Assembly: GCA_029856445.1 (NCBI GenBank) | Contig: JAHQWY010000003.1 | Coordinates: 1 to 34,430, forward strand | Direction: 5' to 3' | DNA: 34,430 nucleotides | Source of the DNA: Promethearchaeia archaeon | Lineage (GTDB): Archaea > Asgardarchaeota > Lokiarchaeia > Sigyniarchaeales > SOKP01 | Shown: piece by piece, positions 998 to 30,367 of the stretch | How positions within the stretch are numbered: position 1 is the stretch's first letter | Layout: the number at the start of each line of letters is the position of its first letter | Made by a program: the position numbers and the translations under genes | Notes under the pieces: generated by a model | What the model saw: only the letters and a program-made list of their open reading frames with translations | What the model was told of the DNA's origin: nothing | Databases searched by the model: none

Positions 998-1305
998 TTT
1001 AGTTAATCACAGAAATATCACGTCATAAAGAATTAGCTTATTGATAAATAATAAAAATTTAGCCTTAAATATTTTTTTGAAAGTATTCGCATTGAAAAAA
1101 TCCAAAATAAAATTACATAAGATTGATCTAAAAAAAAACCTAATTTTTTAATGGTTTGAAGATTATAAATGAATTTACAGACACTGTTTTTAAATAACAT
1201 AAAGATATAAGCTAAAATAAAAAAGATTTTTATAAGATTTTGTTCTATTATTTTTTAGTACTGAATTTAATAAGTTTTAATTAAGAAAGGTTGTGATAAG
1301 AGAGT
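998..1305. other. Intergenic region, divergent promoters
   Basis: About 300 AT-rich bases between the small GTPase (-) and aIF1 (+). A TATA-like TTTTTATAAG at 1227-1236 is a reasonable promoter element for aIF1. I see no convincing small ORF or RNA gene here. Confidence 0.5.
1293..1297 (+). promoter_or_regulatory. Shine-Dalgarno-like site that decides the aIF1 start
   Basis: GTGAT (within GGTTGTGAT, 1289-1297) matches the 3' half of GGAGGTGAT, the complement of the conserved archaeal 16S rRNA 3' end. It ends 8 bases before the ATT at 1306, a normal spacing, and so supports AUU as the start codon of aIF1. The match is partial and was judged by eye. Confidence 0.5.
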
Positions 1306-1626
1306 ATTAAAGACGACGACATTTGTCCATTATGTAGCTTTCCAAAAGAACTCTGTATTTGTGATAGTTTAAGTGCTGATGAACAACAAATAGTTATTTC
1401 TAACGATAGAAGAAAATGGGGGAGAGTTGTAACTGTAATTACTTTTGTTGGAGATTTTGATGTAAATTTAAAAAATATATTAACAAAAGCAAAAAAAAAA
1501 TGTGCTTCTGGGGGAACTGTAAGAGACAACGGTGTTGAGCTTCAAGGAGATCATCGCTTTAAAATGAAAAAATTATTAATCGATTTAGGGTTTCCTGAAG
1601 AAAATATTCTTATCCAAGGATCATAA
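1306..1626 (+). CDS. Translation initiation factor aIF1 (SUI1), apparent AUU start
   Basis: A 106-residue homologue of eIF1/SUI1, the factor that enforces start-codon fidelity on the small subunit. The N-terminus carries the archaeal zinc motif CPLC...CIC (C7, C10, C17, C19). The SUI1 domain follows, with the signature CASGGTVRDNGVELQGDH and the ending LGFPEENILIQGS. The reading frame opens only after stops at 1294-1299, and its first codons are GAG AGT ATT AAA GAC. No ATG, GTG or TTG occurs in frame until an ATG deep in the C-terminal part, far inside the conserved domain. ATT 1306 therefore appears to be the start, placing I-C-P-L-C at residues 6-10 as in other archaeal aIF1. A second ATT lies at 1321. 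Gene identity is very secure; the AUU start is a strong inference. Confidence 0.93.
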   Translation: MKDDDICPLCSFPKELCICDSLSADEQQIVISNDRRKWGRVVTVITFVGDFDVNLKNILTKAKKKCASGGTVRDNGVELQGDHRFKMKKLLIDLGFPEENILIQGS

Positions 1627-13197: not shown

Positions 13198-14136
13198 TTG
13201 AATTTGGTGGATCTTTCAATACCTCAAAAAAATTTAAATTTATGCCCAGAATGTGGTAACAAAAATTTAATCTCTGACGATACACGCGGTGAGGTTGTTT
13301 GCAATGATTGTGGTTTAGTTTTAAGCCAAAGAGTCATAGATTCTGGCCCTGAATGGCGAGCATTCACTTCTGAAGAGGCAAATAGGAAAGTTAGAGTTGG
13401 AGCACCTACAACTTTAACTCTCCATGATAAAGGATTAAGTACTATGATAGGTTGGAAGAATAAGGATGCTTTCGGGAAAACAATCAGTCCAAAAATGAAA
13501 GCTGAGGTCTATCGTTTAAGGAAATGGCATGTCAGAACCCGAACTAATAAATCTATTGATAGAAACCTAGCATATGCTATGAATGAATTAGATCGATTTG
13601 CTTCACAACTTAATCTTTCTAAAGACATTAAGGAATCTGCAGCTCACATCTACAGAAAAATGGCGAATAAAAATTTAATCAGAGGGAGATCGATTGAAGC
13701 AATGTTGATTGCATCCATTTACCTATCCTGTAGACTAAATAATATACCAAAAACTCTCGATGATTTTATAGAATTTGCTTCAGTTGACAAAAAAAAGATC
13801 GCACGATGTTATAGACTTATACTAAATGAGCTTAAATTAAACATACATGTTTCTTCTCCGATAAATTTCATCCCTCGATTTTGTGCTGATTTAAAATTAT
13901 CTGGTAGAACTCAAAACAGAGCTGCATCGATTCTAGAGCTTGCTAAAATGCATCGAATTACAGCAGGAAAGGCTCCAACCGGTTTAGCAGGTGCAGCATT
14001 ATATGTTGCTGCGATACAAGAAGGAGAAAGGCGAACTCAAAAAGAGATTTCAATCACAGCAGGAGTTACTGAAGCAACCATCCGAAATAGATACAAAGAA
14101 TTAGTAAATCATTTGAAATTCAATTTAAACGTTTAA
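13198..14136 (+). CDS. tfb: Transcription initiation factor TFB (TFIIB)
   Basis: A protein of about 312 residues with an N-terminal B-ribbon (C16, C19, C35, C38), a B-finger/reader region (GPEWRAF...VGAPTTLTLHDKGL) and two cyclin-like repeats (about 110-200 and 205-300), with RGRSIEAMLIASIYLSCR and KAPTGLAGAALYVAAI as the repeat signatures. It bridges TBP-bound promoters and RNA polymerase. No in-frame ATG lies before the ribbon, so the start is TTG 13198 or GTG 13207. AAAGGG at 13192-13197 gives better spacing to GTG 13207. It converges with rpoP. Confidence 0.97.
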   Translation: MNLVDLSIPQKNLNLCPECGNKNLISDDTRGEVVCNDCGLVLSQRVIDSGPEWRAFTSEEANRKVRVGAPTTLTLHDKGLSTMIGWKNKDAFGKTISPKMKAEVYRLRKWHVRTRTNKSIDRNLAYAMNELDRFASQLNLSKDIKESAAHIYRKMANKNLIRGRSIEAMLIASIYLSCRLNNIPKTLDDFIEFASVDKKKIARCYRLILNELKLNIHVSSPINFIPRFCADLKLSGRTQNRAASILELAKMHRITAGKAPTGLAGAALYVAAIQEGERRTQKEISITAGVTEATIRNRYKELVNHLKFNLNV

Positions 14137-14169
14137 TAAAGGACCAATAATTTTAGAAAATGTTTAATT

Positions 14170-14319
14170 TTAACGAACTTTAATTCGTTTTATTACATCT
14201 GGTCTTTTCTTATATAAAATCCGAAATCCACAGTGAGAACATTTAATACCTGGAAGTGCGCTCAATTCTTTTTTACTTACTTCTTTCCCGCAACTCTTTC
14301 TAGCACACACATATTTCAT
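14170..14319 (-). CDS. rpoP: RNA polymerase subunit P (Rpo12/Rpb12)
   Basis: A 49-residue subunit of the archaeal RNA polymerase, homologous to eukaryotic RPABC4. The protein starts MKYVCARKSCGKEV and continues through LSALPGIKCSHCGFRILYKKRPDVIKRIKVR, the full family pattern with zinc ligands C5, C10, C27 and C30. The first pair is C-x4-C instead of the usual C-x2-C, a two-residue insertion. The ORF is short enough to be missed by length-filtered gene callers. It sits tail to tail with TFB. Confidence 0.93.
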   Translation of the reverse strand: MKYVCARKSCGKEVSKKELSALPGIKCSHCGFRILYKKRPDVIKRIKVR

Positions 14320-14417
14320 ATTATATTCAAATATTTTATGATTAAAATATTTTTTGCTTAAGAACAGTAAAATTGAAAAATTTAATGAAAAAGAAGTTGA
14401 TTATAAATTATTAGGTA

Positions 14418-15227
14418 CTAAATATAAAGCGATTTTCTTTTATCCTCTGTATCCACAACCTGGAGAGTATCAAGATCTTTTTCTAATTGATCTTTCTTAA
14501 TTTGAAGGTTTTTAGTTATATCTTCAATATTTTCTAGCGAATATTTCTTTTTAATTGGCAATGTAAACGATTTTTTAAGCATTTCTAAAAGTGTGATTGA
14601 TGCTCTTAAATCAGTAATATCCTCATTAACCATAGCCATATTATCTGTTTCAGCGAGAAAAACTAAACCATCAATATTAAATCGTGCTTTTGCTAGCGTT
14701 GGAATTAATCCATTTGCACCAATTATCACACCTTTCTGAATTTTTTGGCAATTAGTTACAACTAAATAATTTTCTAAAATTTCTCGATTTGTAGAGCTAA
14801 CAAATATTTGTGGAGTTTTTGAATTAAGTTTTCGACTGCTCACAGGATAAGCACCAAGCGCAACTATAAGTTTTATCCCGTACTGATTAATTATTTCTGT
14901 AAGGAAATTGGAGATACGATAAATTCCCTTAGGTGTTAAACTTTGAGCATCAGCAGTTATTAAAATAATATCTCTTAATTCATTTGGGTCTTTCCAAAAT
15001 AAAATTTCTGCTTTAGGAGCAGATAAGATACTATCATCAACTATCGCTCCTGCAGGATAATCATCAAAAATAATATCCATTAAATTTTGAGCATTAAGTT
15101 GCCCTATTAATGAATCTAAAGCAAATTTACCTACATCGGCAATTCCTGGCATTCCTAAGATACATAATGGCTTTATGAATTGTTTCTTAGAAAGGTCGAC
15201 ATGTTGAATAATTCTTATACCTTCCAT
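14418..15227 (-). CDS. PAC2-family proteasome assembly chaperone-like protein
   Basis: A 269-residue member of the PAC2/PbaA-PbaB superfamily (COG2047-like). Recognisable are LCILGMPGIADVGKFALDSLIGQLNA, IFDDYPAGAIVDDSILSAPKAEILFW, IILITADAQSLTPKGIYRISNFL, LIVALGAYPV and VIIGANGLIPTLAKARFNIDGLVFLAETDN. A C-terminal coiled-coil-like tail (about 235-260) ends in KSLYI. Archaeal PbaB carries a C-terminal HbYX motif (hydrophobic-Tyr-X) that docks on the proteasome; here the last residues are L-Y-I, which fits HbYX exactly. That supports a proteasome-linked role. No proteasome subunit gene is in the window. Confidence 0.9.
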   Translation of the reverse strand: MEGIRIIQHVDLSKKQFIKPLCILGMPGIADVGKFALDSLIGQLNAQNLMDIIFDDYPAGAIVDDSILSAPKAEILFWKDPNELRDIILITADAQSLTPKGIYRISNFLTEIINQYGIKLIVALGAYPVSSRKLNSKTPQIFVSSTNREILENYLVVTNCQKIQKGVIIGANGLIPTLAKARFNIDGLVFLAETDNMAMVNEDITDLRASITLLEMLKKSFTLPIKKKYSLENIEDITKNLQIKKDQLEKDLDTLQVVDTEDKRKSLYI

Positions 15228-15332
15228 AGATTAAACCTTCTTTTCACAAAAATATATCTAATAATAGGGTATTTTTATCAGTTTAAAATGGATATATTAT
15301 CCTCGTAGAATTTTAAAATCATCATGATAATA

Positions 15333-15345
15333 CGCTTTTAAAGCG
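15333..15345. repeat. Short palindrome upstream of the YkgJ-like gene
   Basis: CGCTTTTAAAGCG is a perfect 6-base-arm palindrome in an otherwise AT-rich divergent promoter region, followed at 15355-15368 by two AATATT palindromes. It could be an operator; nothing further supports it. Confidence 0.25.
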
Positions 15346-15447
15346 CTCGATCACAATATTTCAATATTATCCAAAAATTAATTTTTAGGTACAGCTTAAA
15401 TATCTTAATATAAAACTCAGTTTTTGTTTAAAGAAAGAAGAATATAA

Positions 15448-16047
15448 ATGACAAATTTAGAATATAAGTGTCAATTGTGCGGAACATGTTGCCATGAGAT
15501 TCCTGGAGAATATGTTAAAAGGATTCCTATATATCCAGACGAAGCAGATAGATTAATTGAAATAGCCAAAAAAAGAAATGTTGATTTCAGGATAATCGAA
15601 GATTTAGTCTTTCCAGATATAAAAAACGAAAAAATAATGGTCCTAACTTATCGAATAAGGTTAGATAATGAATCAAAAGGTTGCCCTTTTTATAGTAAAA
15701 CAACAGGTTGCACAATCCAGGATGTTAAACCTTTAGCTTGTCAAGCATATCCATTAGCTTTAAAACGACTTGATGCATTTAATTTTGCAATATCTATTGA
15801 TCCTTTATGTAATTTTGTTATTATGAATTACGATGAGTTAGAGAAAACCGATTTGGAAAAATTAAGAGAAATTTTTAAAGAAGAATATCCAAAAGCAGAA
15901 AATTTTTACCGAAAAAACAAAAAGCTTATGTTTAAAATTAGAAAATTAGAGGTTACTAACAAAATTAAAATCCCTCACGAAATAAATTTGGAGAACTTCA
16001 ATGATTATCTAAAAAGATGGAATCGTACAGAGATTAGAGTAAACTAA
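15448..16047 (+). CDS. YkgJ-family cysteine-cluster protein
   Basis: A 199-residue protein of the YkgJ/UPF0153 type, thought to bind zinc or an Fe-S cluster. The hallmark N-terminal cluster is CQLCGTCCHEIPG (C8, C11, C14, C15). It is followed by GCPFY...GCTIQDVKPLACQAYPL, the second conserved part of the family, and a later Cys in DPLCNF. The C-terminal 60 residues are basic and helical. The biochemical role of the family is not established. It is divergent from the PAC2-like gene. Confidence 0.88.
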   Translation: MTNLEYKCQLCGTCCHEIPGEYVKRIPIYPDEADRLIEIAKKRNVDFRIIEDLVFPDIKNEKIMVLTYRIRLDNESKGCPFYSKTTGCTIQDVKPLACQAYPLALKRLDAFNFAISIDPLCNFVIMNYDELEKTDLEKLREIFKEEYPKAENFYRKNKKLMFKIRKLEVTNKIKIPHEINLENFNDYLKRWNRTEIRVN

Positions 16048-16075
16048 TTTTGTTTCTGTGAATATTGGGATGAAT

Positions 16076-16468
16076 CTAAATTTTTAACTTTAAATCTTTA
16101 ATTAACTCTTTGAATTTGCTCTCTTCCAATTCTTTTTCATAGAATTTATTAAAACCTTCACTTATCACCTGGGCTAATATATGCTTACAGAATTTCCTTT
16201 TTTTATGTACAACAACGTTTTTATAGAAATCTTGACAAGAACAGAATAATCTTGGATAGATCAAATGTTCTTGATTTTCACCCATAGCAGTCCAAACGAT
16301 CCTATTTGACGGCGTGTAGATATATTTTGTAATTCCTCTTTTTAATACCTCTAATACGTCGTTAGATTTATCGGGAAATATGTTTTCTATGAATGAGATA
16401 AAATCTTCGTCAATTAATTGCTTTTGTTTCGCTTGTTCAAAAACCTTCAATAATAAATCTTTTGACAT
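16076..16468 (-). CDS. SWIM zinc-finger protein
   Basis: A 130-residue protein with a helical N-terminus (1-50) and a SWIM-type zinc finger CxCxnCxH: C76, C78, C94, H96 (FCSCQDFYKN...RKFCKHILAQ). In archaea and eukaryotes, small SWIM proteins (Sws1/SWSAP1 and relatives) work with RecA/Rad51 paralogues in recombination. No RadA paralogue is adjacent here, so that role is only suggested by the family. It is divergent from the glycosyltransferase gene. Confidence 0.85.
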   Translation of the reverse strand: MSKDLLLKVFEQAKQKQLIDEDFISFIENIFPDKSNDVLEVLKRGITKYIYTPSNRIVWTAMGENQEHLIYPRLFCSCQDFYKNVVVHKKRKFCKHILAQVISEGFNKFYEKELEESKFKELIKDLKLKI

Positions 16469-16519
16469 TTTCTCTAATATAGTAATAGTATCAATAAATA
16501 AAAAACGATCATCAAAATA

Positions 16520-17809
16520 TTGAATAATATATTATATCTTCCAACTCGATATTTCCCAGCCATTTCTGGCGCCGAATTCTATTTCCAAAGAATGGCAGAG
16601 ATATTAACTTCGAAATACAATTATAAAATAGATATTTATACTTCAAATGCTATAGATTTTAAAGCTTTACGAGATCCCAAAGGGAAGGTATTAAAACCCG
16701 ATAATAAATTATTCCATAAGGTAAATTCCCTGAAAATAAAAAGATTTCCAATAAATTATAACCTTTCAGAAAATGAGATTTATCAAAGGCTAAAAAATAT
16801 TGAGTCTTTTAATTCGTTAAATCTCAGTAGAGAATGTGTAACAAAATTTATTAAAAATGGACCATATTTAGAAGATTTAATAAAGTTCTTCATTACTAGT
16901 AATGAAGAGAATTATGATTTGATTCATACAACATTTTTCCCATATTTTAATTTAGTTATTTGTTTACTCTTTGGAAAAATTTTAGAAGTCCCCACGATTT
17001 GTACGCCCTTTTTTCATTTTTCAAATCCACGATATTCAGATTCAGTTTTAAATAAAATATTAAGCAAGTTTGATCGGATTATTGCTTGTACATATATTGA
17101 AAAAAAGATCTTAGTTGATAAATTTAAAATTCAAAACGAAAAGATAGACGTTATTCCTATGGGTGTAGATGATAAAATATTCAGAAGTAACCGTAAAATG
17201 CAAACAAATCATTATAAATTTAAAGAACACTTTTTCCATGAAAAGGAAAAAAAATTTAGATTAATACTTTATTGTGGTAACAAAAATTACGAAAAAGGAG
17301 CTATTAGCATTTTAAAATCCATTCCTCTAATTCTTGAAAAAATCAAAAATGTATATTTTGTATTTATTGGACCTTCAAGTAAAGCTTACAATCGTGAATT
17401 ATCTAAAATTCTAAAATTTAAACGTGCTAGAATAATCAATTTTACTCCAGATAATTTAACAGGTTATTATGATAAAAAAAAAATAGCAGCCTTTAAAGAA
17501 GCTGATTTATATTTAATGCCTAGTAGAACTGATGCTTTTGGAATTGCCTTTTTAGAGGCTTGGGCTGCTGGAATACCAGTTATTGGAGCAAGAATAGGTG
17601 CAACTCCGGAAGTAATAAGAGAAAACATTGATGGGCTTTTAGTTGAATTTGATAATCCTCTAGATATTGCCCAAAAAGTTATCAAACTGATAAAAAATAA
17701 AAGGTTGAAAAAGAAGCTTGGATTATCTGGTCAACATAGAGTTTCCCAAAGTTATACATGGGACATAATTGCTAAAAAAACGCATAATACATATCAAAAC
17801 TTATTATGA
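16520..17809 (+). CDS. GT4-family glycosyltransferase
   Basis: A protein of about 429 residues with a GT-B fold. The N-terminal Rossmann domain starts LPTRYFPAISGAEFYFQRMAEIL, the acceptor-side signature of GT4 enzymes. The C-terminal donor domain has ADLYLMPSRTDAFGIAFLEAWAAGIPVIGARIGATPEVI (about 330-370), including the E-x7-E type motif. It probably transfers a sugar from a nucleotide donor at the cytoplasmic membrane face; no transmembrane helix is seen. TTG 16520 is the likely start, as no ATG lies near the conserved N-terminus. The PLP enzyme follows 20 bases downstream and may be co-transcribed. Confidence 0.92.
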   Translation: MNNILYLPTRYFPAISGAEFYFQRMAEILTSKYNYKIDIYTSNAIDFKALRDPKGKVLKPDNKLFHKVNSLKIKRFPINYNLSENEIYQRLKNIESFNSLNLSRECVTKFIKNGPYLEDLIKFFITSNEENYDLIHTTFFPYFNLVICLLFGKILEVPTICTPFFHFSNPRYSDSVLNKILSKFDRIIACTYIEKKILVDKFKIQNEKIDVIPMGVDDKIFRSNRKMQTNHYKFKEHFFHEKEKKFRLILYCGNKNYEKGAISILKSIPLILEKIKNVYFVFIGPSSKAYNRELSKILKFKRARIINFTPDNLTGYYDKKKIAAFKEADLYLMPSRTDAFGIAFLEAWAAGIPVIGARIGATPEVIRENIDGLLVEFDNPLDIAQKVIKLIKNKRLKKKLGLSGQHRVSQSYTWDIIAKKTHNTYQNLL

Positions 17810-17829
17810 TCATAAAGTTGATGAAATAA

Positions 17830-19050
17830 ATGAAAAATATTTCAGGAAATCCATATTTAAAAAGGAAAAATGGAAAAGTACTAATTGATTCAATACTCTT
17901 AGATGAGATAATCGAGCAATATAAAACACCTTTACTGATTTTATTAGAAAACAGGTTAAGAGATAATATTAAGTCATTTGTTAGTATTTTCAATGAAAAA
18001 TTTGAAAATTTTCAGAGTTTCTATTCATTCAAAGCTAATTACTTACCAGAAATCTGTAAGATTATTTGTTCTGAGGGTATTGGGGCAAAAACAGTAAGTG
18101 TACCTGAACTTAAATTAGCACTGAAACTTGGTTTTTCCCCCGATAAAATTTTAGTGGGTGCCCCTTATTTACCAGAAACTCTTATAGAATTAAGTATTAA
18201 GAGCAAAGTAAGAGAAATTATAATATATAGTATAAAAGATTTAAAGAAAGTAAATGATATAGCCCAAAAACATAATCATGTCCAAAATATCTGCATTAGA
18301 GTAAACTCCCCGAAATATATGAGTAAATTGGGTATTAAATTTGATGATGATAAAATCAAATTATTGAAAAAATCGATATTAGCATTTAAAAATATCAAAT
18401 TAACATCTATATTATCTCATTTTGGGACCCAAATGAATAACATTAAACAATATGAAAAAAACATCAAATCTCTAGTTTTAAACTTAGAATTATTATCAAA
18501 ATATGATATTCTATTTGAGAGTGTGAATCTAGGTGGAGGTTTTCCAGAAGCAACTGTTATAGCTCAAAATGAACTAAAAAAAATTGCAGAAATGACAAAG
18601 AGTTATTTTAAAAAATCTAACTTACAATGTCCTATGATAAGTTTTGAGCCTGGAAGATATTTTGTAGGTGATTCTGGCTTATATATATCAAAAATTGTCA
18701 ATGTGAGTGAAGATCGTTGGATTTTTATAGACATAGGAAACCACATTTGTCCTAAATTTGCGAGATGCTCTTTAAGATTTTATAATGCTACTCAGATTGA
18801 TAAACCTCACAAATATAAAACCTCGATAGCTGGTATTGTCCCTACTGATCAAGATGTTCTAGCAAAAAATTACTTCTTTACTCAAGATTTAAGAGAAGAT
18901 GATAATGTTATAGTGACAAACACAGGTGCTTATTGTTTAACTTTTTCAAATCGTTTCCCTTATCCCTTACCAATAATAGTCCTTATCAATGGGGATAAAA
19001 TTACAAAAATATTTGATCCTGATTTAAACAAAGATTTTTCATTAAATTAA
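17830..19050 (+). CDS. Fold-type III PLP decarboxylase-like enzyme (DapDC/ODC family), atypical
   Basis: A 406-residue relative of diaminopimelate and ornithine decarboxylases. The PLP lysine is K68 in YSFKANYLPEI. The phosphate-binding loop NLGGGFP and the EPGRYFVGDSG motif are present, as is the C-terminal GAYCLTFSNRFPYPLP. The active-site segment that in DapDC reads roughly G-P-x-C-x-S-x-D is here GIVPTDQD, so the conserved Cys from the partner subunit appears to be missing. The SH(I/F)GSQ region is HFGTQ. Substrate is therefore uncertain and may not be diaminopimelate. It follows a glycosyltransferase closely, suggesting a joint role, perhaps in making an amino-containing surface compound; that is inference. 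Confidence 0.88.
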   Translation: MKNISGNPYLKRKNGKVLIDSILLDEIIEQYKTPLLILLENRLRDNIKSFVSIFNEKFENFQSFYSFKANYLPEICKIICSEGIGAKTVSVPELKLALKLGFSPDKILVGAPYLPETLIELSIKSKVREIIIYSIKDLKKVNDIAQKHNHVQNICIRVNSPKYMSKLGIKFDDDKIKLLKKSILAFKNIKLTSILSHFGTQMNNIKQYEKNIKSLVLNLELLSKYDILFESVNLGGGFPEATVIAQNELKKIAEMTKSYFKKSNLQCPMISFEPGRYFVGDSGLYISKIVNVSEDRWIFIDIGNHICPKFARCSLRFYNATQIDKPHKYKTSIAGIVPTDQDVLAKNYFFTQDLREDDNVIVTNTGAYCLTFSNRFPYPLPIIVLINGDKITKIFDPDLNKDFSLN

Positions 19051-19151
19051 GCTTGGATTAGTATCAAAAAATGTAATACCCCAATAATACATTAATTCTA
19101 ATTTTTTTATTATATTCTTTTTTGTAGCAAGAATTGATTAATTGATAAATT

Positions 19152-20258
19152 ATGGAATCATTTATTAATAAAGCGCGTAAAAGGGAAATAATTAGACCAC
19201 AGGCAGAAAGTTTTGGTTATGCTAATATAAAAATTATTGGGTGTGGTGGTGCTGGAAATAATACTGTTGATAGGTTAATGAAAATTGGAATAAGGGGTGC
19301 AACATGCGTAGCTGTTAATACAGATTGTCAGCATTTAGATAATGTCGAATCTCACCTGAAAATTTTAATTGGAAAGAATCTAACAAAAGGATTAGGGGCG
19401 GGAGGAAATCCCGAGGTAGGAAGAGCTGCTGCCGAAGAATCTCGGGAAGATTTGACCAAAGTATTAAGAGAATCTAATTTAGTTTTTATTACATGTGGTG
19501 AGGGCGGAGGTACAGGAACCGGAAGTGCACCAATTGTGGCTGAAATTGCCAAACTTGAAGGGGCAATAGTTGTAGGGGTAGTAACCCTTCCATTTGAAAC
19601 CGAAATAGGTCGTATTGACAAAGCTAAAATAGGTTTAAACTTATTAAAACGCTATGTTGATACATTGGTAGTAATAGATAATAATAGATTATTAGAAATA
19701 GCTCCAAATTTACCAATAATCGAAGCATTTAGTGTAGCTGATGAAGTTTTAGCTACAATGGTAAAAGGAATCACAGAAACAATCTCTTTACCTTCCTTAA
19801 TCAATCTAGATTTCGCTGATGTCAGAACTATTTTAAGTACAGGTGGAGTTGCCATTGTTGGTGTTGGTGAATCAAACAAGAAAGAAAGTCGAGTTGATGA
19901 TGCTATTGATGATGCTCTAAATACTCCCTTGTTAGATGTAAGTATTGAAGGAGCGAAAGGAGCTTTGATTCATATATGTGGAGGCAATGATATGACCCTT
20001 TCAGAGGCAAATTCAGTAGCTAAAAAGATTTCTGAAAAAATGGATGTGAATGATTCTATGGTTATTTGGGGTGCTCGAGTTTCAGATGAATTTGATGGGT
20101 TTATTAGGGTTATGTTGTTGATAACAGGGATTAAATCTCCTCAAATTTTTGGCAGTGGGTATTCAATGAATAGTTCAATCTTCCCTACTAAAACAAAATC
20201 TTCAAGGCTAAGTTTGTCTGACGATATTTTCAATATTGGTGAAATTACGTTTGACTAG
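19152..20258 (+). CDS. ftsZ: Cell division protein FtsZ
   Basis: A 368-residue tubulin-fold GTPase. Seen are the nucleotide-binding GCGGAGNNTVDRL (about 31-43), the tubulin signature GEGGGTGTGSAP (about 115-126), the loop VIDNNRLLEI, and the T7 loop NLDFADVR carrying the catalytic Asp. It forms the cytoplasmic division ring. The C-terminus (about 320-368) ends in a short acidic segment (SLSDDIFNIGEITFD) that may recruit partners such as SepF. The short N-terminal extension (MESFINKARKREIIRP) is typical of archaeal FtsZ. Asgard genomes usually carry FtsZ alongside ESCRT proteins. Confidence 0.97.
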   Translation: MESFINKARKREIIRPQAESFGYANIKIIGCGGAGNNTVDRLMKIGIRGATCVAVNTDCQHLDNVESHLKILIGKNLTKGLGAGGNPEVGRAAAEESREDLTKVLRESNLVFITCGEGGGTGTGSAPIVAEIAKLEGAIVVGVVTLPFETEIGRIDKAKIGLNLLKRYVDTLVVIDNNRLLEIAPNLPIIEAFSVADEVLATMVKGITETISLPSLINLDFADVRTILSTGGVAIVGVGESNKKESRVDDAIDDALNTPLLDVSIEGAKGALIHICGGNDMTLSEANSVAKKISEKMDVNDSMVIWGARVSDEFDGFIRVMLLITGIKSPQIFGSGYSMNSSIFPTKTKSSRLSLSDDIFNIGEITFD

Positions 20259-20290
20259 TCCTTTTTATATTTCTTTTTAAATTTAAGTGT

Positions 20291-20659
20291 ATGATAAACA
20301 AATTCTCTTCAGAAACACAAAAAGAAATTGATGGAATTATAAAAAAAATCAAAACGTGGAAAGATCTATTTAATATTAATCAAGAATTTTATTACGATGG
20401 CTGGTCCATTTCTTTAAAAGAAAAGAATGTCTATCCTCGTTGTATTATAATTTTTAAATCATATGAAAGTAATCAATTTTCTATTAGAAGCTTCGACATT
20501 TATCTTCGAAATTATCAAAAGGAAGAATATCATGAGATATATTCTGTTGAAAAGATAAAAAATCATCATGATCTAATAAAGGAATTAAAAGATGTTATTT
20601 ACGGAAAAGATTTAGGAAATCAGGTTTTACAAATCTATAATAAAACATTTTCAGAATAA
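20291..20659 (+). CDS. Hypothetical protein, 122 aa
   Basis: I do not recognise it. A helical N-terminus (1-35) leads to aromatic-rich strands (FYYDGWSISLKEKNVYPRCIIIFKSY...FSIRSFDIYLRNY, about 37-78) and a helical C-terminus. No cysteine motif, signal or membrane helix is evident. It follows ftsZ by 32 bases on the same strand and might be co-transcribed. Codon use is like the neighbours. It converges with the Dim2 gene, with 3 bases between. Confidence 0.7.
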   Translation: MINKFSSETQKEIDGIIKKIKTWKDLFNINQEFYYDGWSISLKEKNVYPRCIIIFKSYESNQFSIRSFDIYLRNYQKEEYHEIYSVEKIKNHHDLIKELKDVIYGKDLGNQVLQIYNKTFSE

Positions 20660-20662
20660 AAA

Positions 20663-21229
20663 TTAGAATTCTGGTTTATACATTTGTCTAAATTCTTCTT
20701 TCTTTTTGTCGTTATATTTATTTTCTATAAATTTTAAAACTGTATGATGAGGTATCCCTTTTATTATCATATTTATTGCTTTTCTAGCAATTTGTAGATT
20801 TTCATAAGCAGCGATTACAGAAACGGTTTTCCCATACACAGAGACATAACATTCAGTAAACCTTTCAAGAGCTTTTCGGATTTCTCCATTCCTCCCAATA
20901 ATTCGTCCTTTTACCCTTTTTATACGTTTCTCTGATTTTCCTAATATTAAAAATAGATTAAAAACTTCGAGATCATAATCATCTTCGATCAATTTCATAG
21001 CTTTAATAGGATTAAAACCTCTATTAATGGCATTTACTATCTTTTGAGCGGTATAAACATTTAGTGGTTTATAGTTTGGTTCATCTAATTTAGGTAAGAT
21101 TTCACAATCTCCTGTTTTACTATCTAAATTGATCTTTACTCCAAGCTTTTTTTCAATATCTTTCTTAACATGACCATCTGTTCCTATCAAGACCGCTATT
21201 CGATTTTTACCTATTTTCAATATTTTCAC
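20663..21229 (-). CDS. KH-domain ribosome assembly protein Dim2/Pno1
   Basis: A 188-residue protein with two KH domains: the first with ILKIGKNRIAVLIGTDGHVKKDIEKKLG, the second with VKGRIIGRNGEIRKALERFTECYVSVYGKTVSVIA, which holds the canonical GRNG loop. This is the archaeal homologue of Dim2/Pno1, which binds the 3' end of pre-16S rRNA and stimulates aIF2 binding. Archaeal Dim2 is usually encoded beside Rio1, as here (37-base gap). It is the last gene of a minus-strand ribosome-biogenesis cluster. Confidence 0.94.
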   Translation of the reverse strand: MKILKIGKNRIAVLIGTDGHVKKDIEKKLGVKINLDSKTGDCEILPKLDEPNYKPLNVYTAQKIVNAINRGFNPIKAMKLIEDDYDLEVFNLFLILGKSEKRIKRVKGRIIGRNGEIRKALERFTECYVSVYGKTVSVIAAYENLQIARKAINMIIKGIPHHTVLKFIENKYNDKKKEEFRQMYKPEF

Positions 21230-21266
21230 TTTAAACTGTTATATCTTTTAGAAAGATTAAAAATTT

Positions 21267-22115
21267 TTAAACCTCCATATTGATTACATCATAATAAAAA
21301 TCTTTAGGATCTGGTGTTTCAACACCTAATTTATTAAAATATTGAAAAATATTTTTGATATCTCTTACCAAAAAAACCTCTGCTTTAGGATGTTGGATTG
21401 ATACAGCTTGAGAGATGTCAATTACAACAGGACTCTGATTATGATATAAAATGTTGAACTCACTTAGATCTCCATGTACTAATTTTGCCTTTTGATATAA
21501 TAATTTTATAAATTTTAAGATTTCATTAAATAGGCTTACAGGTTCTTTGGGATTCTTAATATCTTTCAAAACAGGCGCAGGTATAGATTCAAAACCAATA
21601 TATTCCATAATTAAAATATTATTTTTAATAAATATTGGTTTAGGAACACGCAAATCTACTTTATATGCTCTTTTAAGATTTTTAAATTCTTTACTTGCCC
21701 ATAGGAATATAATTTTTGAAACATTGTGCGGAATTTTTTTAAATCTTGGATCTCCAATGATATATTTTTTCATCCATCTTGAAGTATTGCTATCAATTTT
21801 ATAAATTTTAACAGCAACTTCTTTTTCCTCTAAATCATATGCTAAATAAACATTAGCTTCTTTTCCAGCAGAAATAATGCCCTCTATTCTTTTTAATGGT
21901 CCATTTACTAATATTTTATTTAGATGAAAGACAGTACGTTCATCAAAAACAGATTCAATAGCAGCTCTCTTCTTTGATTGGTCTATTTTTTTAATTCTTT
22001 TATAATCAATTTTTGTTTTTTCTAACTCATCAATTCCGGAATTGAATTTCTTTTCTGATTTATCTTCTAAGAATCCTTCTTCATCCTCATCAATTTCGTC
22101 ATCGTGATCTTCCAA
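21267..22115 (-). CDS. rio1: RIO1-type atypical serine kinase/ATPase
   Basis: A 282-residue RIO kinase with an acidic N-terminal tail. The ATP loop is GIISAGKEANVY (79-90), Lys about 103 is in AVKIYKI, the catalytic loop is HGDLSEFNIL (214-223) and the metal-binding motif is IDIS (232-235), the RIO replacement for DFG. Like other RIO proteins it lacks an activation loop. It acts in late 40S/30S maturation in archaea and eukaryotes. The STGSR-type phosphate loop is replaced by SAGKEA, typical of Rio1. Gene spacing is 13 bases from NMD3. Confidence 0.95.
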   Translation of the reverse strand: MEDHDDEIDEDEEGFLEDKSEKKFNSGIDELEKTKIDYKRIKKIDQSKKRAAIESVFDERTVFHLNKILVNGPLKRIEGIISAGKEANVYLAYDLEEKEVAVKIYKIDSNTSRWMKKYIIGDPRFKKIPHNVSKIIFLWASKEFKNLKRAYKVDLRVPKPIFIKNNILIMEYIGFESIPAPVLKDIKNPKEPVSLFNEILKFIKLLYQKAKLVHGDLSEFNILYHNQSPVVIDISQAVSIQHPKAEVFLVRDIKNIFQYFNKLGVETPDPKDFYYDVINMEV

Positions 22116-22128
22116 TAAGTACTCCTCT

Positions 22129-23040
22129 TTATTTTTTTTTTATAATATTCTCATTAAAAAAGTAAGAATAGTCTTTTGTAAATTTAGAATTATTTTTACT
22201 TTTTAGTATGATTTTACTTTTTGTAATATTTTCTACTATAAATTCTTGATTGTCTATTAGAATTATATCATTAGTATCTACAGGTAAAAATTTTATCAAT
22301 GTTTTTAATCTATAGAGGTTTTTACCCTTCTGATTGTCTCTTCCTACCAATTTCTTTGATCTTTTTAACAAAAAATGATACTTTCCTTTTAGAAATTTTA
22401 TAATATAATTCATTAATTCGTTTGTACTGAGATATAAATCTACCCCATATTTTTGATCTTCGATCTTAGAAATGTATTGACGGGTGTCTTTATCAAAAAT
22501 ATTACTAACAAATTTATCTATTTCATTTAAAATTGTCTCAATCAACTCTAATTGGCTCTCATTTTTTACTCGAAGTTGGATAATTGATATAAAATAAGTG
22601 CCACCTCGTAAATTAGAACAATTCCTGCATAACATGTTATTTAAATTTAATTTTATTTCTTGCTGATGATAAATATTTGATGATCCCTTCAATTTTCCCA
22701 TGACAAGTATTTCAACGGATCTTATTAAACCTGTTGATGAATATACAATTGAATCTTCATTCGTTGAAAATAAAATCTCAATTTGCTTATTTTTGAGTAG
22801 TGATTTCAATAAAAACTTTTTAATAATCTCATAAAGGTTAGAAAACAAATTATCATTAGTAGGTTCAATCCATAAATCTCTTTTAGCATAACTACCACAA
22901 TCAATACAAACATTCACAGAAAAAGTCTTAGGTAACTCAAATAACGGATTTTCCTCTAAATAGCATTGAAGGCACATTCCGAAATGAGGAGAATCTTCAT
23001 TTAAACTTTTTCCACATATTGCACAAAATCGATTTGGCAT
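22129..23040 (-). CDS. NMD3-like ribosomal large-subunit factor
   Basis: A 303-residue homologue of the N-terminal part of NMD3. It has the characteristic zinc-binding cysteines CAICG (C6, C9), CLQC (C23, C26), CIDCG (C45, C48) and later CRNC (about 137-140), then the eIF5A/OB-like C-terminal domain (LPVDTNDIILIDNQEFIVENI). In eukaryotes NMD3 exports the 60S subunit; archaeal forms lack the C-terminal export signals, as here, and probably act in 50S maturation or anti-association. Its ATG overlaps the DUF424 stop as TAATG, which suggests coupled translation. Confidence 0.92.
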   Translation of the reverse strand: MPNRFCAICGKSLNEDSPHFGMCLQCYLEENPLFELPKTFSVNVCIDCGSYAKRDLWIEPTNDNLFSNLYEIIKKFLLKSLLKNKQIEILFSTNEDSIVYSSTGLIRSVEILVMGKLKGSSNIYHQQEIKLNLNNMLCRNCSNLRGGTYFISIIQLRVKNESQLELIETILNEIDKFVSNIFDKDTRQYISKIEDQKYGVDLYLSTNELMNYIIKFLKGKYHFLLKRSKKLVGRDNQKGKNLYRLKTLIKFLPVDTNDIILIDNQEFIVENITKSKIILKSKNNSKFTKDYSYFFNENIIKKK

Positions 23041-23336
23041 TAAAACATCATCTTTATAGCCATTGGTACCCCATTTATGGATCTAATTCCTTCTCTTGGT
23101 AGCAGTTTACACTCAATTGCTTTCTCGATTATTTTTTCTCCTACTATATTGAAAAAAGAAGCGTTCTTCAAAACATCTATAGCATCTTCTATCTTGATTA
23201 AATCTCCACCATAGAATCGGGTCGATATCTCAATTTTCAAATTACCCTCAGTGAAGACCTGATTAAGAAGCTCCTCATCACAACATGCTACAGTTTCACA
23301 ATCATCTCGAATGTGAATTTTTAGATAAACTCTCAT
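23040..23336 (-). CDS. DUF424 protein (COG2412)
   Basis: A 98-residue archaeal protein of unknown function. Recognisable are VYLKIHIRDDCETVACCDEELLNQVFTEGNLKIEIS...FYGG and the ending FNIVGEKIIEKAIECKLL...SINGVPMAIKM, matching the DUF424 family. It lies between aIF2-beta and NMD3 with a one-base stop/start overlap with the latter. The constant association with translation genes points to an RNA- or ribosome-related role, by context only. Confidence 0.9.
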   Translation of the reverse strand: MRVYLKIHIRDDCETVACCDEELLNQVFTEGNLKIEISTRFYGGDLIKIEDAIDVLKNASFFNIVGEKIIEKAIECKLLPREGIRSINGVPMAIKMMF

Positions 23337-23353
23337 GATTTTTTTTAAATGCT

Positions 23354-23767
23354 TTATTTCTCTTTAACTTCTACTCTGGCTCCGCAAGCAGTACATTTTA
23401 AATAAAGTTTTTTACCCTCCCGTTGAATTTGGGTGTCTGGTTTTTTACAAATACTACATAATACATATGTTTTTGTATAATTTTCAATTAACTTGTTCAG
23501 TACTTGCTCTTTATATTGACCTTTTAGAAATAATTGTTGTCCTCTTATCTCCCCCATTGTTCCTGCGCTCTTTAGAAAAATGCCTAAAAAATGTCTTCTA
23601 TCTCTATTAAGAGTACTGATTATTTTATTGAAATTTGTAATAAATGTATTTCTACTTTCTATTCTAAGTTCTACTTTAGGAATTTCGAATCTTGAGGATT
23701 TTTTTACATTTTCTGGTATTTTTTCATAAGCTTCCTCTAATAAATCCTCATAATCATTTAAATCCAT
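23354..23767 (-). CDS. Translation initiation factor aIF2 subunit beta
   Basis: A 137-residue subunit of the heterotrimeric aIF2 that brings initiator tRNA to the small subunit. The N-terminal helix binds the gamma subunit. The central alpha/beta domain has RRHFLGIFLKSAGTMGEIRGQQLFLKG, and the C-terminal zinc ribbon has C104, C107, C125, C128 (CSIC...CTAC). Length and motifs are as in other archaea. The initiator tRNA gene lies about 1 kb upstream. Confidence 0.96.
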   Translation of the reverse strand: MDLNDYEDLLEEAYEKIPENVKKSSRFEIPKVELRIESRNTFITNFNKIISTLNRDRRHFLGIFLKSAGTMGEIRGQQLFLKGQYKEQVLNKLIENYTKTYVLCSICKKPDTQIQREGKKLYLKCTACGARVEVKEK

Positions 23768-23865
23768 TATTTAATCATCTAGTTAATTATTATATAATTA
23801 TTAAATCAATAATAAGAAAAATATTTTTCCTTTATTTATAATAAAGTTATCAATTTTAAGGTGAT

Positions 23866-24573
23866 TTAGTAAGATTCAAAAATATCTATATCTGATTCAT
23901 AAATACGCGATTCTAAAATTAAATCATTAATATAAGATCTTAATTCAATATCAGGTATTTTTATTTCTCTCCTTAACCCTTCAAAATTTATTCCTTTACC
24001 CTTATCAGAATGTAATTTAATTACTGAGTATACTTGCTCCTTCAGATTATCTCCTTCAGTATAATCAAATTCCTCTTCAAATAGATTATTAACATCAGAA
24101 AGGACTGGAATTTCCTGAATATCTCCTGCTTTAATACGATTTATTATTTCAGCATTTCTTAGCAAAATAAGATTGGGTTCCTCTACTTTCTTAATAATTT
24201 CAATCCATAATGATATATATCCACCCTTTTTGCTAACCCGACCAACGACATCAACAATATCACCAACATCATATATATTATAATTATCTGGATTAACTCT
24301 ATCCTTAACCGCTCTAATCAAACCTGTGCTATCATCCAAATTAAAAAATACTCTCACATTTGCTGTTAACTCCTCTTCTAATCCAGTTTCAAATTCATCA
24401 GGTTCTATTACTTTTTCTTTCTTTTCTACTATAGTAGCAATTAGTCTGATTCTTTTAACTTTTCCAAAGATAGTTAGAAAACAATTCTCATTTTCGTCAT
24501 ATTTTCCTTCTTCAATATGTCTTATCCAGCAATGTATTGCTGGATTTCTCTTATAACCAGTACTTTCAGTCAT
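23866..24573 (-). CDS. RPA32-like OB-fold protein with C-terminal winged helix
   Basis: A 235-residue protein. Residues about 10-150 form an OB fold (FGKVKRIRLIATIVEKK...DDSTGLIRAV...IYDVGDIVDVVGRVSKKGGYISLWIEII), with the STGLIR pattern of RPA subunits. After an acidic linker, residues about 175-230 look like a winged helix (LKEQVYSVIKLHSDKGKGINFEGLRREIKIPDIELRSYINDLILESRIYES). This OB-plus-winged-helix order is that of eukaryotic RPA32. It could pair with the large RPA-like protein encoded at 3191-4915. It is the first gene of the minus-strand cluster, 98 bases before aIF2-beta. Confidence 0.85.
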   Translation of the reverse strand: MTESTGYKRNPAIHCWIRHIEEGKYDENENCFLTIFGKVKRIRLIATIVEKKEKVIEPDEFETGLEEELTANVRVFFNLDDSTGLIRAVKDRVNPDNYNIYDVGDIVDVVGRVSKKGGYISLWIEIIKKVEEPNLILLRNAEIINRIKAGDIQEIPVLSDVNNLFEEEFDYTEGDNLKEQVYSVIKLHSDKGKGINFEGLRREIKIPDIELRSYINDLILESRIYESDIDIFESY

Positions 24574-24758
24574 TATGATTCAATTACACCTTTAGATACA
24601 TTTAAAATTATTTCCATTTAATTTAGGAATTTTTATTAAAGGAATAATACGTCATCCTTTCTTTTTTTATTGCTCAATTATTTATTAAATCAAATGAGGA
24701 TCATTATTTTTAGGACTCAAGAAATTTTATTGGAAAAAACCTAAAAATAAGAGTTTAA

Positions 24759-24888
24759 TAGCGGGGGTTCGATTTGAACGAACGATCTCAGGGTTTCTCA
24801 ATGGAGTGGAAGTACCATTTATGAGCCCTGCGGCATAAACCAGGTTAGCCCACCATCCAGAATTTTTAGGTGACTAGCCCACCCCGCT
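24759..24888 (-). tRNA. Initiator tRNA-Met (CAU) with two introns
   Basis: The acceptor stem pairs AGCGGGG (24888-24882) with CCCCGCT (24766-24760), giving the A1-U72 pair typical of archaeal/eukaryotic initiator tRNA; discriminator A is at 24759. The anticodon stem CAGGG/CCCTG with three G-C pairs encloses CTCATAA, anticodon CAT. A 29-nt intron (24845-24873) splits the D loop after G15; its end repeats GGGCTA of the upstream exon. A 25-nt intron (24795-24819) lies at the canonical 37/38 site. Removing both leaves 76 nt. Exact splice points may shift by a base. Confidence 0.92.
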
Positions 24889-24908
24889 TTGAATAAATCT
24901 ATGAGATT

Positions 24909-24916
24909 ATTTTATA
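24909..24916 (-). promoter_or_regulatory. TATA box for initiator tRNA
   Basis: Reading the minus strand, CGGTATAAAAT places TATAAAAT 21-28 bases before the tRNA 5' end, a good archaeal TATA position. Confidence 0.5.
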
Positions 24917-25104
24917 CCGATATATACTAGTTTTATATATTGCAATATAAACCCCCATAATTAAATGTTTTACTTTTTACAAGTACTAAAGTTTAATTTT
25001 GAATTCTGAGGATAAAATTGCGTAAGATTATATTTTTTATGGAAAAAGTTTAACTTACTATTTTAATTACATAATAAAAGATTTATTAAGCTAATCAGAG
25101 AAAT

Positions 25105-26937
25105 ATGCCACTTTTAAATTCACCATTTATTGAATTTTTGCTCAATCCTTGGTTTCTCTTATCTCTATTCTTTTGGCTAATTGTCTTAGCATTAGTTTAT
25201 TTATTAAGAAATAAAAAAGAAGCTGCGTATTTATTCTTCCCATTGTTAGCAATGTTCAAAACTAAAAAATTAAATAATTTCTTAAGAAAGATTTCTAGAA
25301 AAGTACCAAAATTTTGGAAAATTTTTTGGACAATAGGTATCTTCATCTCATTTGGATTTGTCATTTTTGCATTTTATTTCTTTTTTACAAATTTTATTAA
25401 CCTACTTGTAAATCCCAGAATAGAACAAGCAGTATTACCTCTTATTCCTGGCGTAACAATAGATTTACCCTTATTTTTTTACTTAATTCTTCCTTTATTA
25501 TTCATTGTAACTACTCATGAATTTGCTCATGGAATCGCAGCGAGTGCAGACGGACTAGATATTAAATCTACAGGAGTCCTTGGAGCGGGTATTTTCTACA
25601 TAATTGCTTTTGGTGCTTTTGTTGAAGTTGATGAGAGAATTGTAAATTCAAATAAGGTTAACAGGTATACCCGGTTAAGAATTGCGGCAGCAGGAACTTA
25701 TGTTAACGGAATTACGGCAGTTGTTGCTTTTATTTTGCTATTATGTTTCCCTTTGATGATAGCACCATGGTATCGTCAAGTAACACAAGTTAATACTGTA
25801 TTAAAAGAGGATGAAGGCGGATTTAATTATGGGAACATCACCAGGGGAGATGCCATAATTGCTATTAAAAAGAGTGGTACTACTGATGAGAATTACGTAT
25901 CTCTTGATGAATTAAAAGGAGTTTCCTTAAGTAGTATTTTAAACAACAAATCGACATTAGAGTGTGCAATTAATGATAGTTTAACACTAAAGATTTATGA
26001 TCCCTCTTTAGATGCTTTTTTAGAAAAAAATATTACTTTAGGACCACGTTATTATATAGGCCTTAGATATGAATATACCTCTGATGGACTTGGTTTAAAA
26101 ATAAATAAAGTTCTTTCTTTAAGTGAAGGTGGAAACAATTTTGGTAATATTTCAGAAGGATTAACTGTGATAAAAATTAATGGAATTCCTATAAATGTTT
26201 CAAATGGAGACACATTAGAGAGAGTTTATACTTCCTCTTTTCAAAATGGTATGATTCTAAATAACATTAATTTTAGTACCGATTCAGCTAATTATACTTT
26301 AGATCTTAGGATCGATGGAGTCATAATTGGAATATATAGTAATTCATATTTTATGTATAAGAATGGTATAGCCAAATTCTTCACAAGTTTTTGGCCAGAA
26401 TTTCTATTAAGAGAACTATCATGGCTTTTTTTAATTGCCTTTAGTATTACTTTATTCAATATGCTCCCTTTACCTATATTTGATGGGGATAGGATGGTTA
26501 AAGAATTAATTAATTGGGGTATAGGAGAAAATTACAAATCATTGAAGAAAAAGAAAGATAAATTTTATTTTAAAAAGGAAGATAAAAATTATGAGTTATC
26601 AGAATATCGAGTTGAAAAAATTAACTCTATTGAAATTATTATGAAGGATCCATTAAGATCTATTGAACCAAGTACAATTAGACTTTCAGAAGATAATTAT
26701 CAAATTATTGATAAAATTGGGGATGGATTTAAGGATACTGTTTTATTGAACCTCCCTGAAAAAACAGAGTTAACGGAAAATTCGGTAGTTGAAATTTCTT
26801 ATGAACATTACTATGATGAGAAGAAGAAGATAAAGAATTTAATTCTAAATACACTAAGATTTATTACCATATTTATTATCCTCGGAAATTTCATTTTATC
26901 ATTTATTAAATTTGGTGGATTAATCTTTTGGATGTAA
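25105..26937 (+). CDS. Site-2 protease family intramembrane metalloprotease (M50)
   Basis: A 610-residue membrane protein. Hydrophobic segments lie near 17-34, 72-100, 121-137, 156-175, 193-218, 420-455 and 580-605. The zinc motif HEFAH (138-142) is in TTHEFAHGIAASADG, and the third ligand is in NMLPLPIFDGDRM (about 452-464), the S2P NxxPxPxxDG. Between them is a long extracytoplasmic insert of about 200 residues that reads as two PDZ-like units (NYGNITRGDAIIAIK and NFGNISEGLTVIKING). Another soluble insert (about 470-575) precedes the last helix. Such enzymes cleave transmembrane regulators; the substrate is unknown. Confidence 0.93.
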   Translation: MPLLNSPFIEFLLNPWFLLSLFFWLIVLALVYLLRNKKEAAYLFFPLLAMFKTKKLNNFLRKISRKVPKFWKIFWTIGIFISFGFVIFAFYFFFTNFINLLVNPRIEQAVLPLIPGVTIDLPLFFYLILPLLFIVTTHEFAHGIAASADGLDIKSTGVLGAGIFYIIAFGAFVEVDERIVNSNKVNRYTRLRIAAAGTYVNGITAVVAFILLLCFPLMIAPWYRQVTQVNTVLKEDEGGFNYGNITRGDAIIAIKKSGTTDENYVSLDELKGVSLSSILNNKSTLECAINDSLTLKIYDPSLDAFLEKNITLGPRYYIGLRYEYTSDGLGLKINKVLSLSEGGNNFGNISEGLTVIKINGIPINVSNGDTLERVYTSSFQNGMILNNINFSTDSANYTLDLRIDGVIIGIYSNSYFMYKNGIAKFFTSFWPEFLLRELSWLFLIAFSITLFNMLPLPIFDGDRMVKELINWGIGENYKSLKKKKDKFYFKKEDKNYELSEYRVEKINSIEIIMKDPLRSIEPSTIRLSEDNYQIIDKIGDGFKDTVLLNLPEKTELTENSVVEISYEHYYDEKKKIKNLILNTLRFITIFIILGNFILSFIKFGGLIFWM

Positions 26938-26967
26938 TAAAATAAATTTATCTTTTAATTGGTATTA

Positions 26968-27942
26968 ATGATTAATTACAATATTTTCTTGAAGAAAGGT
27001 AAATGTTCTTATTGCGAAAACTCAATTGTAATTGAGAGAAGATATTCAGGTGAAAACCTCTGCCCGAACTGTTTTGAGAAAAACATTGAAAAAACAATTT
27101 ATAAGACCATTTCAAAATATGGAATGTTAAAGCCTGATGATAAGATTATAGTAGCACTTTCAGGAGGTAAGGATTCATATACTCTTTTATATAATCTCAC
27201 TATGATTCAAAAAAACCTATACCATCCAAATAAGCTCATAGCATTAACAATAGACGAGGGTATAAAAGATTACCGAGAAAATAGCATTAAAAATGCGATT
27301 GAATTATGTAGAGAACTAAATGTTGAGCATCATATCATCACTTTTAAAGAAAAATTTGGTTTAACCTTAGATGAGATCATCAGGAAAAAAAACCAACTGC
27401 CTGATTACAAATATGCCTGTAATTATTGCGCAACAATAAGGAGGAGATTATTAAATGATGGAGCTAAAGAATTTGGAGGCACTATCTTAGCTATGGGACA
27501 TAACCTTACAGATATAGCAGAAACTTATCTTATGAATATTCTATACAAGCGTTTTCACTTAATAGCAAATCAGTATTTATATAGGAAAGAAAATTCAAAA
27601 TTAAGTCGGTTTTTTGTTAAAAAAATTACTCCATTAATGAGAATTCCTGAAGAAGAGATATTCTTATATGTAAATATTAAAAATTTCAATTATTACCCTT
27701 CACATTGCCCCTATAGAGAAAAAGATCCAATATTGAGAAAAAGGGTTTTGAATTTCATTCAAAAATGTAAAAATTCCAGCCCAGAAATAGAATTTAATTT
27801 ACTCAATGGTTTTTTAGAACTTTCAGCTATTCTATATAACTATAATAAGAAATTAGAATATCAAACATGTCAGTCATGTGGATACCCATGTACAAATACT
27901 TCTATCTGCACTTTTTGTAGTTTTTTAAAAGAGTTGAATTAA
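26968..27942 (+). CDS. tRNA 2-thiolation protein (TtcA/TtuA/Ncs6 family)
   Basis: A 324-residue PP-loop adenylating enzyme that thiolates tRNA. An N-terminal zinc finger CSYC...CPNC (13-35) precedes the PP-loop SGGKDS (65-70). The CNYC pair (151-154) and a later Cys in SHCPYREKDP supply the catalytic or [4Fe-4S] cysteines. A C-terminal zinc finger CQSCGYPCTNTSICTFC closes the protein, typical of the TtuA/Ncs6 branch. Targets could be U34 or position 54 of tRNA. ATG 26968 is chosen over an in-frame TTG at 26959. Its stop overlaps that of convergent Get3 by 4 bases. Confidence 0.93.
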   Translation: MINYNIFLKKGKCSYCENSIVIERRYSGENLCPNCFEKNIEKTIYKTISKYGMLKPDDKIIVALSGGKDSYTLLYNLTMIQKNLYHPNKLIALTIDEGIKDYRENSIKNAIELCRELNVEHHIITFKEKFGLTLDEIIRKKNQLPDYKYACNYCATIRRRLLNDGAKEFGGTILAMGHNLTDIAETYLMNILYKRFHLIANQYLYRKENSKLSRFFVKKITPLMRIPEEEIFLYVNIKNFNYYPSHCPYREKDPILRKRVLNFIQKCKNSSPEIEFNLLNGFLELSAILYNYNKKLEYQTCQSCGYPCTNTSICTFCSFLKELN

Positions 27943-28931
27943 TAGGATTTTTCTATTAAAAATTCTCCCATTTCTTTAAGTTTATCATATTCTCTTATTT
28001 CTTCTTTGAATAACGGTACTTCAATTAGATTCTTATGCAATTTCTCACTAAATATTTCTCTTATTTTTATCAAATTTTTTTCTTGCATTTTTCGTCTTGC
28101 CTTACAGAACTCACATAGTTCAGTTGGATCTTGGTATAATTGATTCACTACAATATTAGAGACAGAAATGTTATTTTTAATTAATTCATTTAGCAAACGT
28201 CCAGTTTCAGTAATAGCCATTTCTTCAGGGATCATTACAATTACAAATGAATTTTTGACGGGATTTGTAAGATCCTCTCTTGCATTTAAAATAGATTCAT
28301 TTAATCTTTCTAAAATTTCTAAAGAATCATCTTTTTTTTTTTCTTCACGAGAAAATAGTCTTTTTACTGCCCCAAACATGTTACCTATTTTTATTCTCAT
28401 TTTTATTAATTTTCCTATCCATCCAGATAGAGTTTCTGGTAAGCTTAGAAATCTTAGGGTATGGCCTGTGGGAGCAGTATCAAATATAATTAAATCATAA
28501 TCGTGGTCTGTTTCAACGAATTCTAATATTTTCCCAAAAGCTAAAGCCTCATCAATTCCAGGCGGTGTCATCGAAGCTAATTCTTCCATATCCCCAAAAA
28601 GTGGCACATTTTCCATTAACCCAGACATGCCCATTTCTTCCATTGGATTTATATTAGTTATTCCCCTAAATTCTGCCATATTTGCCTTAGGATTTATCTC
28701 TAAAGCAGTAAGATTTTCTATTCCTTCAATATGAGTAGGTACACCTGGTAATAATTCTACACCTAAACTATCTCCCAAAGAATGAGCAGGATCGGTACTT
28801 ATAATCAATGTATTTCTTCCGTGTTCTGCTGCCCAAATTGCCGAACTTGCAGCACAACTAGTTTTTCCTACTCCTCCTTTACCTCCAAACATGATCATTT
28901 TTAAATTTAATAAAAGATTCTTTAACTGCAT
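27939..28931 (-). CDS. get3: Get3/ArsA-type ATPase
   Basis: A 330-residue deviant-Walker-A ATPase. The P-loop is GGKGGVGKT (16-24), switch I is STDPAHSLGD (45-54), switch II is DTAPTGHTLRFLSLP and the A-loop region is near NQLYQDP. The zinc-type CxxC of Get3 is present (CEFCKARRKMQ). A methionine-bearing groove segment ENVPLFGDMEELASMTPPGIDEALAF fits the tail-anchored substrate site. It is single-domain, like archaeal Get3, unlike tandem bacterial ArsA. Likely role is targeting tail-anchored membrane proteins. It lies 66 bases downstream of aRF1. Confidence 0.95.
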   Translation of the reverse strand: MQLKNLLLNLKMIMFGGKGGVGKTSCAASSAIWAAEHGRNTLIISTDPAHSLGDSLGVELLPGVPTHIEGIENLTALEINPKANMAEFRGITNINPMEEMGMSGLMENVPLFGDMEELASMTPPGIDEALAFGKILEFVETDHDYDLIIFDTAPTGHTLRFLSLPETLSGWIGKLIKMRIKIGNMFGAVKRLFSREEKKKDDSLEILERLNESILNAREDLTNPVKNSFVIVMIPEEMAITETGRLLNELIKNNISVSNIVVNQLYQDPTELCEFCKARRKMQEKNLIKIREIFSEKLHKNLIEVPLFKEEIREYDKLKEMGEFLIEKSY

Positions 28932-28997
28932 CTTTGAAATTACACCTGTTTAGTTATTTTAAAATTTAGAATTAAGTTTAATTTAATTTTGTTAATT

Positions 28998-30278: not shown

Positions 30279-30331
30279 CTACTAAGATTACAAATTATAC
30301 AAAAAATTAATATTTTTTCTTTATACCAATC

Positions 30332-30339: not shown

Positions 30340-30367
30340 GAACTGTATTTAATACATGTGAAAAAAT

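Follow-up and report, generated by a model that had tools for sequence, protein, structure and literature searches.

How is a core translation factor made when its reading frame offers no ordinary start codon? The window, the whole 34,430-nucleotide stretch of Lokiarchaeal DNA that we analysed, carries a gene for the initiation factor aIF1 (SUI1 family) that raises this question. A first-pass annotation described a frame closed by stops at 1294-1299, with no ATG, GTG or TTG ahead of the CPLC zinc motif and the first ATG deep within the domain, and it proposed a start at ATT 1306 with GTGAT 8 bases upstream. Direct reading bore this description out: GTGAT lies at 1293-1297, and the first in-frame ATG, GTG or TTG is the ATG at 1564, which is codon 87 of 106 counting from the ATT. 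The SUI1 domain scored 63.2 bits against a Pfam cutoff of 25.5 (PF01253), and both the zinc motif CxxC...CxC (CPLCSFPKELCIC) and the basic loop DRRKWGR aligned to the solved aIF1 4mo0. This was the only SUI1 match in the genome. The gene was missing from the list of ORFs built on canonical starts, as the annotation had foreseen for gene callers; because such programs accept ATG, GTG and TTG alone, aIF1 is missed or truncated, and this core single-copy translation factor may seem absent from Asgard gene sets.

For a chance comparison, we collected greedy non-overlapping frames over 186 kb of the same genome. The aIF1 frame had the latest first canonical start among the 148 frames of at least 100 codons. 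Of the 122 frames that reached 150 codons, not one lost more than half its length for want of a canonical start; a wider habit of noncanonical starts in this genome was not observed. A few further start-less frames in flanking loci appeared by eye to be antisense or spurious. The features of the locus are collected in Table 1.

Table 1. Features of the aIF1 locus, in positions of the window
Feature	Position	Strand	Evidence
Promoter-like conserved block with TATAAG (TATA-like; putative)	1231..1258	+	TATAAGATTT..TTCTATTATTTTTTAG, common to most Loki-family orthologues
Shine-Dalgarno-like AGGTTGTGAT, equal to AGGAGGTGAT with two internal mismatches	1288..1297	+	Conservation; 16S 3' end
In-frame stops TGA (1294-1296) and TAA (1297-1299), closing the frame 5' of the ATT	1294..1299	+	Sequence reading; TGA kept in genus-mates
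aIF1 (SUI1) CDS read from AUU, 106 aa	1306..1626	+	PF01253, E 3e-17; alignment to M. jannaschii-type aIF1 4mo0, E 1.6e-25
Putative ATT start codon	1306..1308	+	ATT in 41/43 distinct Loki-family orthologues; stop one codon 5' in L013, L043 and L101
Zinc-binding CPLC...CIC motif, aIF1 N-terminal domain	1324..1359	+	Sequence and 4mo0 alignment
Earliest in-frame canonical start, ATG	1564..1566	+	Too late to yield the domain

We gathered genus and family orthologues by searching whole genomes and genome contigs. Counting the window, 14 genus-mate orthologues were readable, and the canonical start was absent from every one of them. Wherever the start region of a genus-mate orthologue could be read, it had AGGTTGTGA(T/A)A and after it ATT AAA, with the in-frame TGA. 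Across the 43 distinct Loki-family orthologues, the two exceptions to ATT at the start position were one ATC and one ATA, whereas conserved isoleucine codons within the gene were mostly more mixed (codon 18, for example, was ATA in 30, ATT in 7 and ATC in 3). The putative start codon is poor and has been conserved as poor. In L013, L043 and L101, the codon between the upstream stop and the ATT is AGC, AAA or CCT, so that the ATT is the sole near-cognate codon common to all species. An ATG at this position in related genomes would have spoken against the annotation's proposal; the ATT, ATC and ATA of the Loki-family relatives favour it.

The same comparison bears on whether the true start lies in a spliced upstream exon, or whether the gene is a pseudogene or carries a sequencing error; nothing in favour of these readings emerged. 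The identical arrangement recurs in dozens of independent MAGs, and the orthologues are under purifying selection (median dN/dS of 0.06 over 321 pairs). Upstream of the Shine-Dalgarno-like element, we found no coding exon in the Loki-family orthologues, conservation there being limited to the promoter-like block, and the gene adjoining aIF1 upstream is on the opposite strand. We therefore rejected assembly error, a pseudogene and an upstream exon, all of which are highly improbable.

The ATT follows a conserved Shine-Dalgarno-like element at normal spacing. In the 43 Loki-family orthologues, the start lies mostly 9 bases 3' of AGGTTGTGA, and the core AGGT(T/C)GTGA is kept in nearly all genus orthologues and in several sister genera. 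The 16S 3' end of genus-mates is the standard GGATCACCTCCT, with which the element in the window pairs except at two central bases. Shine-Dalgarno sequences are uncommon in Lokiarchaea (PMC7531240; PMC12993045); in this genome, matches of at least 5 bases preceded 16 of 144 other genes, versus 5 in shuffles. The TATA-like block lies about 75 bases 5' of the ATT, a position that would give a leader of roughly 45 to 50 nucleotides.

A second, diverged aIF1 copy is present in some Loki-family genomes (L016, L040, L093, L094 and L102). Behind GAGGTGA, at the aligned position, these copies too read ATT or ATA, with GTG or ATG in frame as well; in L040, L093, L094 and L016, GAGGTGA or GGAGGTGA lies about 8 nucleotides 5' of the ATT or ATA. 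Two genomes, G015 and G017, had no SUI1 match at estimated completeness of 97 and 94 percent, which may reflect an assembly gap or a true loss.

A GTG at 1293, within the Shine-Dalgarno-like element, opens a short frame (GTG ATA AGA GAG TAT TAA) from which a ribosome might shift by +1 at TAT TAA into the aIF1 frame, in the manner of bacterial RF2. A stop is present at this position of the GTG frame in 27 of the 43 distinct relatives, but it comes with any ATT that has AA or AG after it. L030 (ATC AAA) has no stop there, the stop in L127 comes earlier, L123 lacks the GTG, and the arrangement has no counterpart in the ATA and CTG lineages described below. The GTG also has no Shine-Dalgarno sequence of its own at usable spacing. 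An RF2-type programmed shift predicts a conserved short upstream frame ending at the shift site, and 27 of 43 fell short of this; we regard such a shift as scarcely credible. Initiation of aIF1 at a near-cognate codon, here AUU, is very probable from the comparative sequence evidence, namely the conservation of the codon, the nearby upstream stops, the spacing of the Shine-Dalgarno-like element and the swapping among near-cognates.

That swapping became apparent across the other Asgard lineages. Many lineages have ATT, ATC, ATA, CTG, GTG or TTG at the aligned start position; other lineages have ATG. The annotation's AUU is supported at this locus, but across lineages the codon may be any of six near-cognates. 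Clear cases outside the Loki family, each with a Shine-Dalgarno sequence, had ATA (L057, L062, L064, L135, L136 and L146) or CTG (L155, L156, L241, L242-L245, L250 and L256), often with an in-frame stop directly upstream, which in several cases falls between the Shine-Dalgarno sequence and the start. When no start was assumed, the stretch from the upstream stop to the zinc motif contained no ATG, GTG or TTG in 62 of the 171 distinct aIF1 genes from Asgard archaea; leaving out one masked and one misanchored locus gave 60 of 169. The noncanonical start is not phylum-wide, since ATG occupies the expected position in several families (f4, f8, f13, f15, f16, f17, f18, f19, most of f20, f23 and f25). 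Start calls were ambiguous in genus g2, families f5 and f6 and parts of f3, f14 and f20, because GTG, TTG or ATG also lies nearby in frame.

On a protein tree, the AUG/non-AUG label required 9 changes and codon identity 19, which indicates that non-AUG codons swap among themselves; the tree has few columns and many open forks and the start labels were set by eye, so these counts are indicative only. One clade with good support comprises 11 rows, each from a different genus; all 11 have GTG or CTG, in exchange with each other, and none has the ATG that is a single mutation away.

Two comparisons delimited the phenomenon. No Asgard aIF1A gene among 50 lacked a canonical start, and 19 had only GTG or TTG available. 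The aIF1 genes of TACK and DPANN archaea, of the same SUI1 family, start with ATG in 52 of 53 and 29 of 30 cases, respectively, with one GTG in each group (pooled, ATG in 81/83 and GTG in 2/83); these loci are mostly the better-scoring matches, so that rare exceptions were possibly missed. We settled the TACK and DPANN starts by reading the rows, which showed ATG in each case where automatic anchoring had wrongly called no start. A plasmid search for euryarchaeal aIF1 returned just haloarchaeal copies and YciH-like matches. Within the genes and groups sampled (aIF1A; TACK and DPANN), the noncanonical start was confined to aIF1 and, there, to Asgard archaea.

Why should this factor have such a start? 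Published work on aIF1 suggests an answer: according to passages of PMC6237735, aIF1 destabilises non-AUG initiation in S. solfataricus, and abyssi aIF1 holds the complex dynamic for proofreading. A Lokiarchaeal aIF1 that likewise rejects non-AUG codons, and whose own start is non-AUG, would repress its own gene. The Shine-Dalgarno-like element would position the small subunit on the aIF1 mRNA, and ordinary initiator Met-tRNA would translate it from the AUU, presumably inserting methionine. By driving the initiation complex to reject non-AUG codons, a surplus of aIF1 would repress its own mRNA, and a shortage would lift the repression. Given the published destabilisation of non-AUG initiation, the best explanation, and a probable one, is negative feedback by means of a start codon that is poor on purpose, as in infC and eIF1. 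The feedback logic fits the aIF1 biochemistry in those passages. For the whole reading, AUU initiation behind a Shine-Dalgarno sequence together with aIF1 feedback on its own mRNA, we estimate a probability of about two in three.

Alternatively, the AUU may be a start that serves low expression alone, with no feedback from aIF1. A weak start cuts the output of any gene, the level of aIF1 could be set low in this way, and GTG and TTG, which occur in some Asgard aIF1 genes, are frequent among the aIF1A controls too. However, the starts beyond ATG, GTG and TTG sit in the very factor that discriminates against them and never in aIF1A, and conservation of a Shine-Dalgarno sequence in a lineage poor in them argues against a mere need for low expression. 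We consider this alternative unlikely and favour the feedback reading because such starts are confined to this factor, near-cognates replace one another and the Shine-Dalgarno sequence is retained.

The nearest known systems to the Asgard aIF1 start are bacterial infC and eukaryotic eIF1. Like aIF1, IF3 is an initiation fidelity factor whose own gene, infC, starts with AUU behind a Shine-Dalgarno sequence, and changing the AUU to AUG abolishes autocontrol in Escherichia coli (Butler et al. 1987, by its title as cited in PMC9845219). IF3 belongs to another protein family, whereas aIF1 is archaeal and of the SUI1 family; infC uses AUU and is autocontrolled, whereas aIF1 uses several near-cognates across lineages and its autocontrol is predicted. 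Eukaryotic eIF1 (SUI1) is a homologue of aIF1 in which the stringency factor likewise reads a poor start; its autoregulation acts through an AUG in poor context (Ivanov et al. 2010, as described in PMC9082881 and PMC6237735). It differs in combining a weak-context AUG with scanning, whereas the aIF1 gene here has a non-AUG codon and a ribosome placed by a Shine-Dalgarno sequence.

The annotation knew of no archaeal precedent, and in a full-text search of the open-licence literature we likewise came across no account of archaeal aIF1 being autoregulated or starting at a non-AUG codon; an earlier report may exist elsewhere. The passages of PMC6237735 that recall eIF1 autoregulation do not mention the start of the archaeal aIF1 gene itself. 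If the feedback reading is true, the logic known from bacterial IF3 and eukaryotic eIF1 extends to archaea, in the lineage closest to eukaryotes, and the poor aIF1 start offers a direct and cheap test of Asgard start-codon stringency. A more speculative and rather doubtful extension takes the mechanism back to the Asgard ancestor from which eukaryotes also descend. There, a/eIF1 would already have controlled itself through a deliberately poor start, a near-cognate codon behind a Shine-Dalgarno sequence; eIF1 would have taken up a weak-context AUG once scanning had replaced the Shine-Dalgarno sequence, and bacteria would have arrived at the same solution on their own through IF3.

Elsewhere in the window, positions 79-179 (GCTCCTA...TAGGAGC) resemble a tRNA (Glu-like, with a TTC loop triplet) that seems to contain an insertion of about 30 nucleotides; it is absent from the ARAGORN output. 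A 52-nucleotide Rfam tRNA match at 322-373 on the minus strand, at 30.3 bits barely over the gathering score, could be spurious or could mark a tRNA that is short or otherwise odd. The region 13198-31165 appeared by eye to be rich in information-processing genes (TFIIB, FtsZ-like, RIO kinase, aIF2 beta, aRF1 and uS2), of which aIF2 beta, aRF1 and uS2 have ATG starts.
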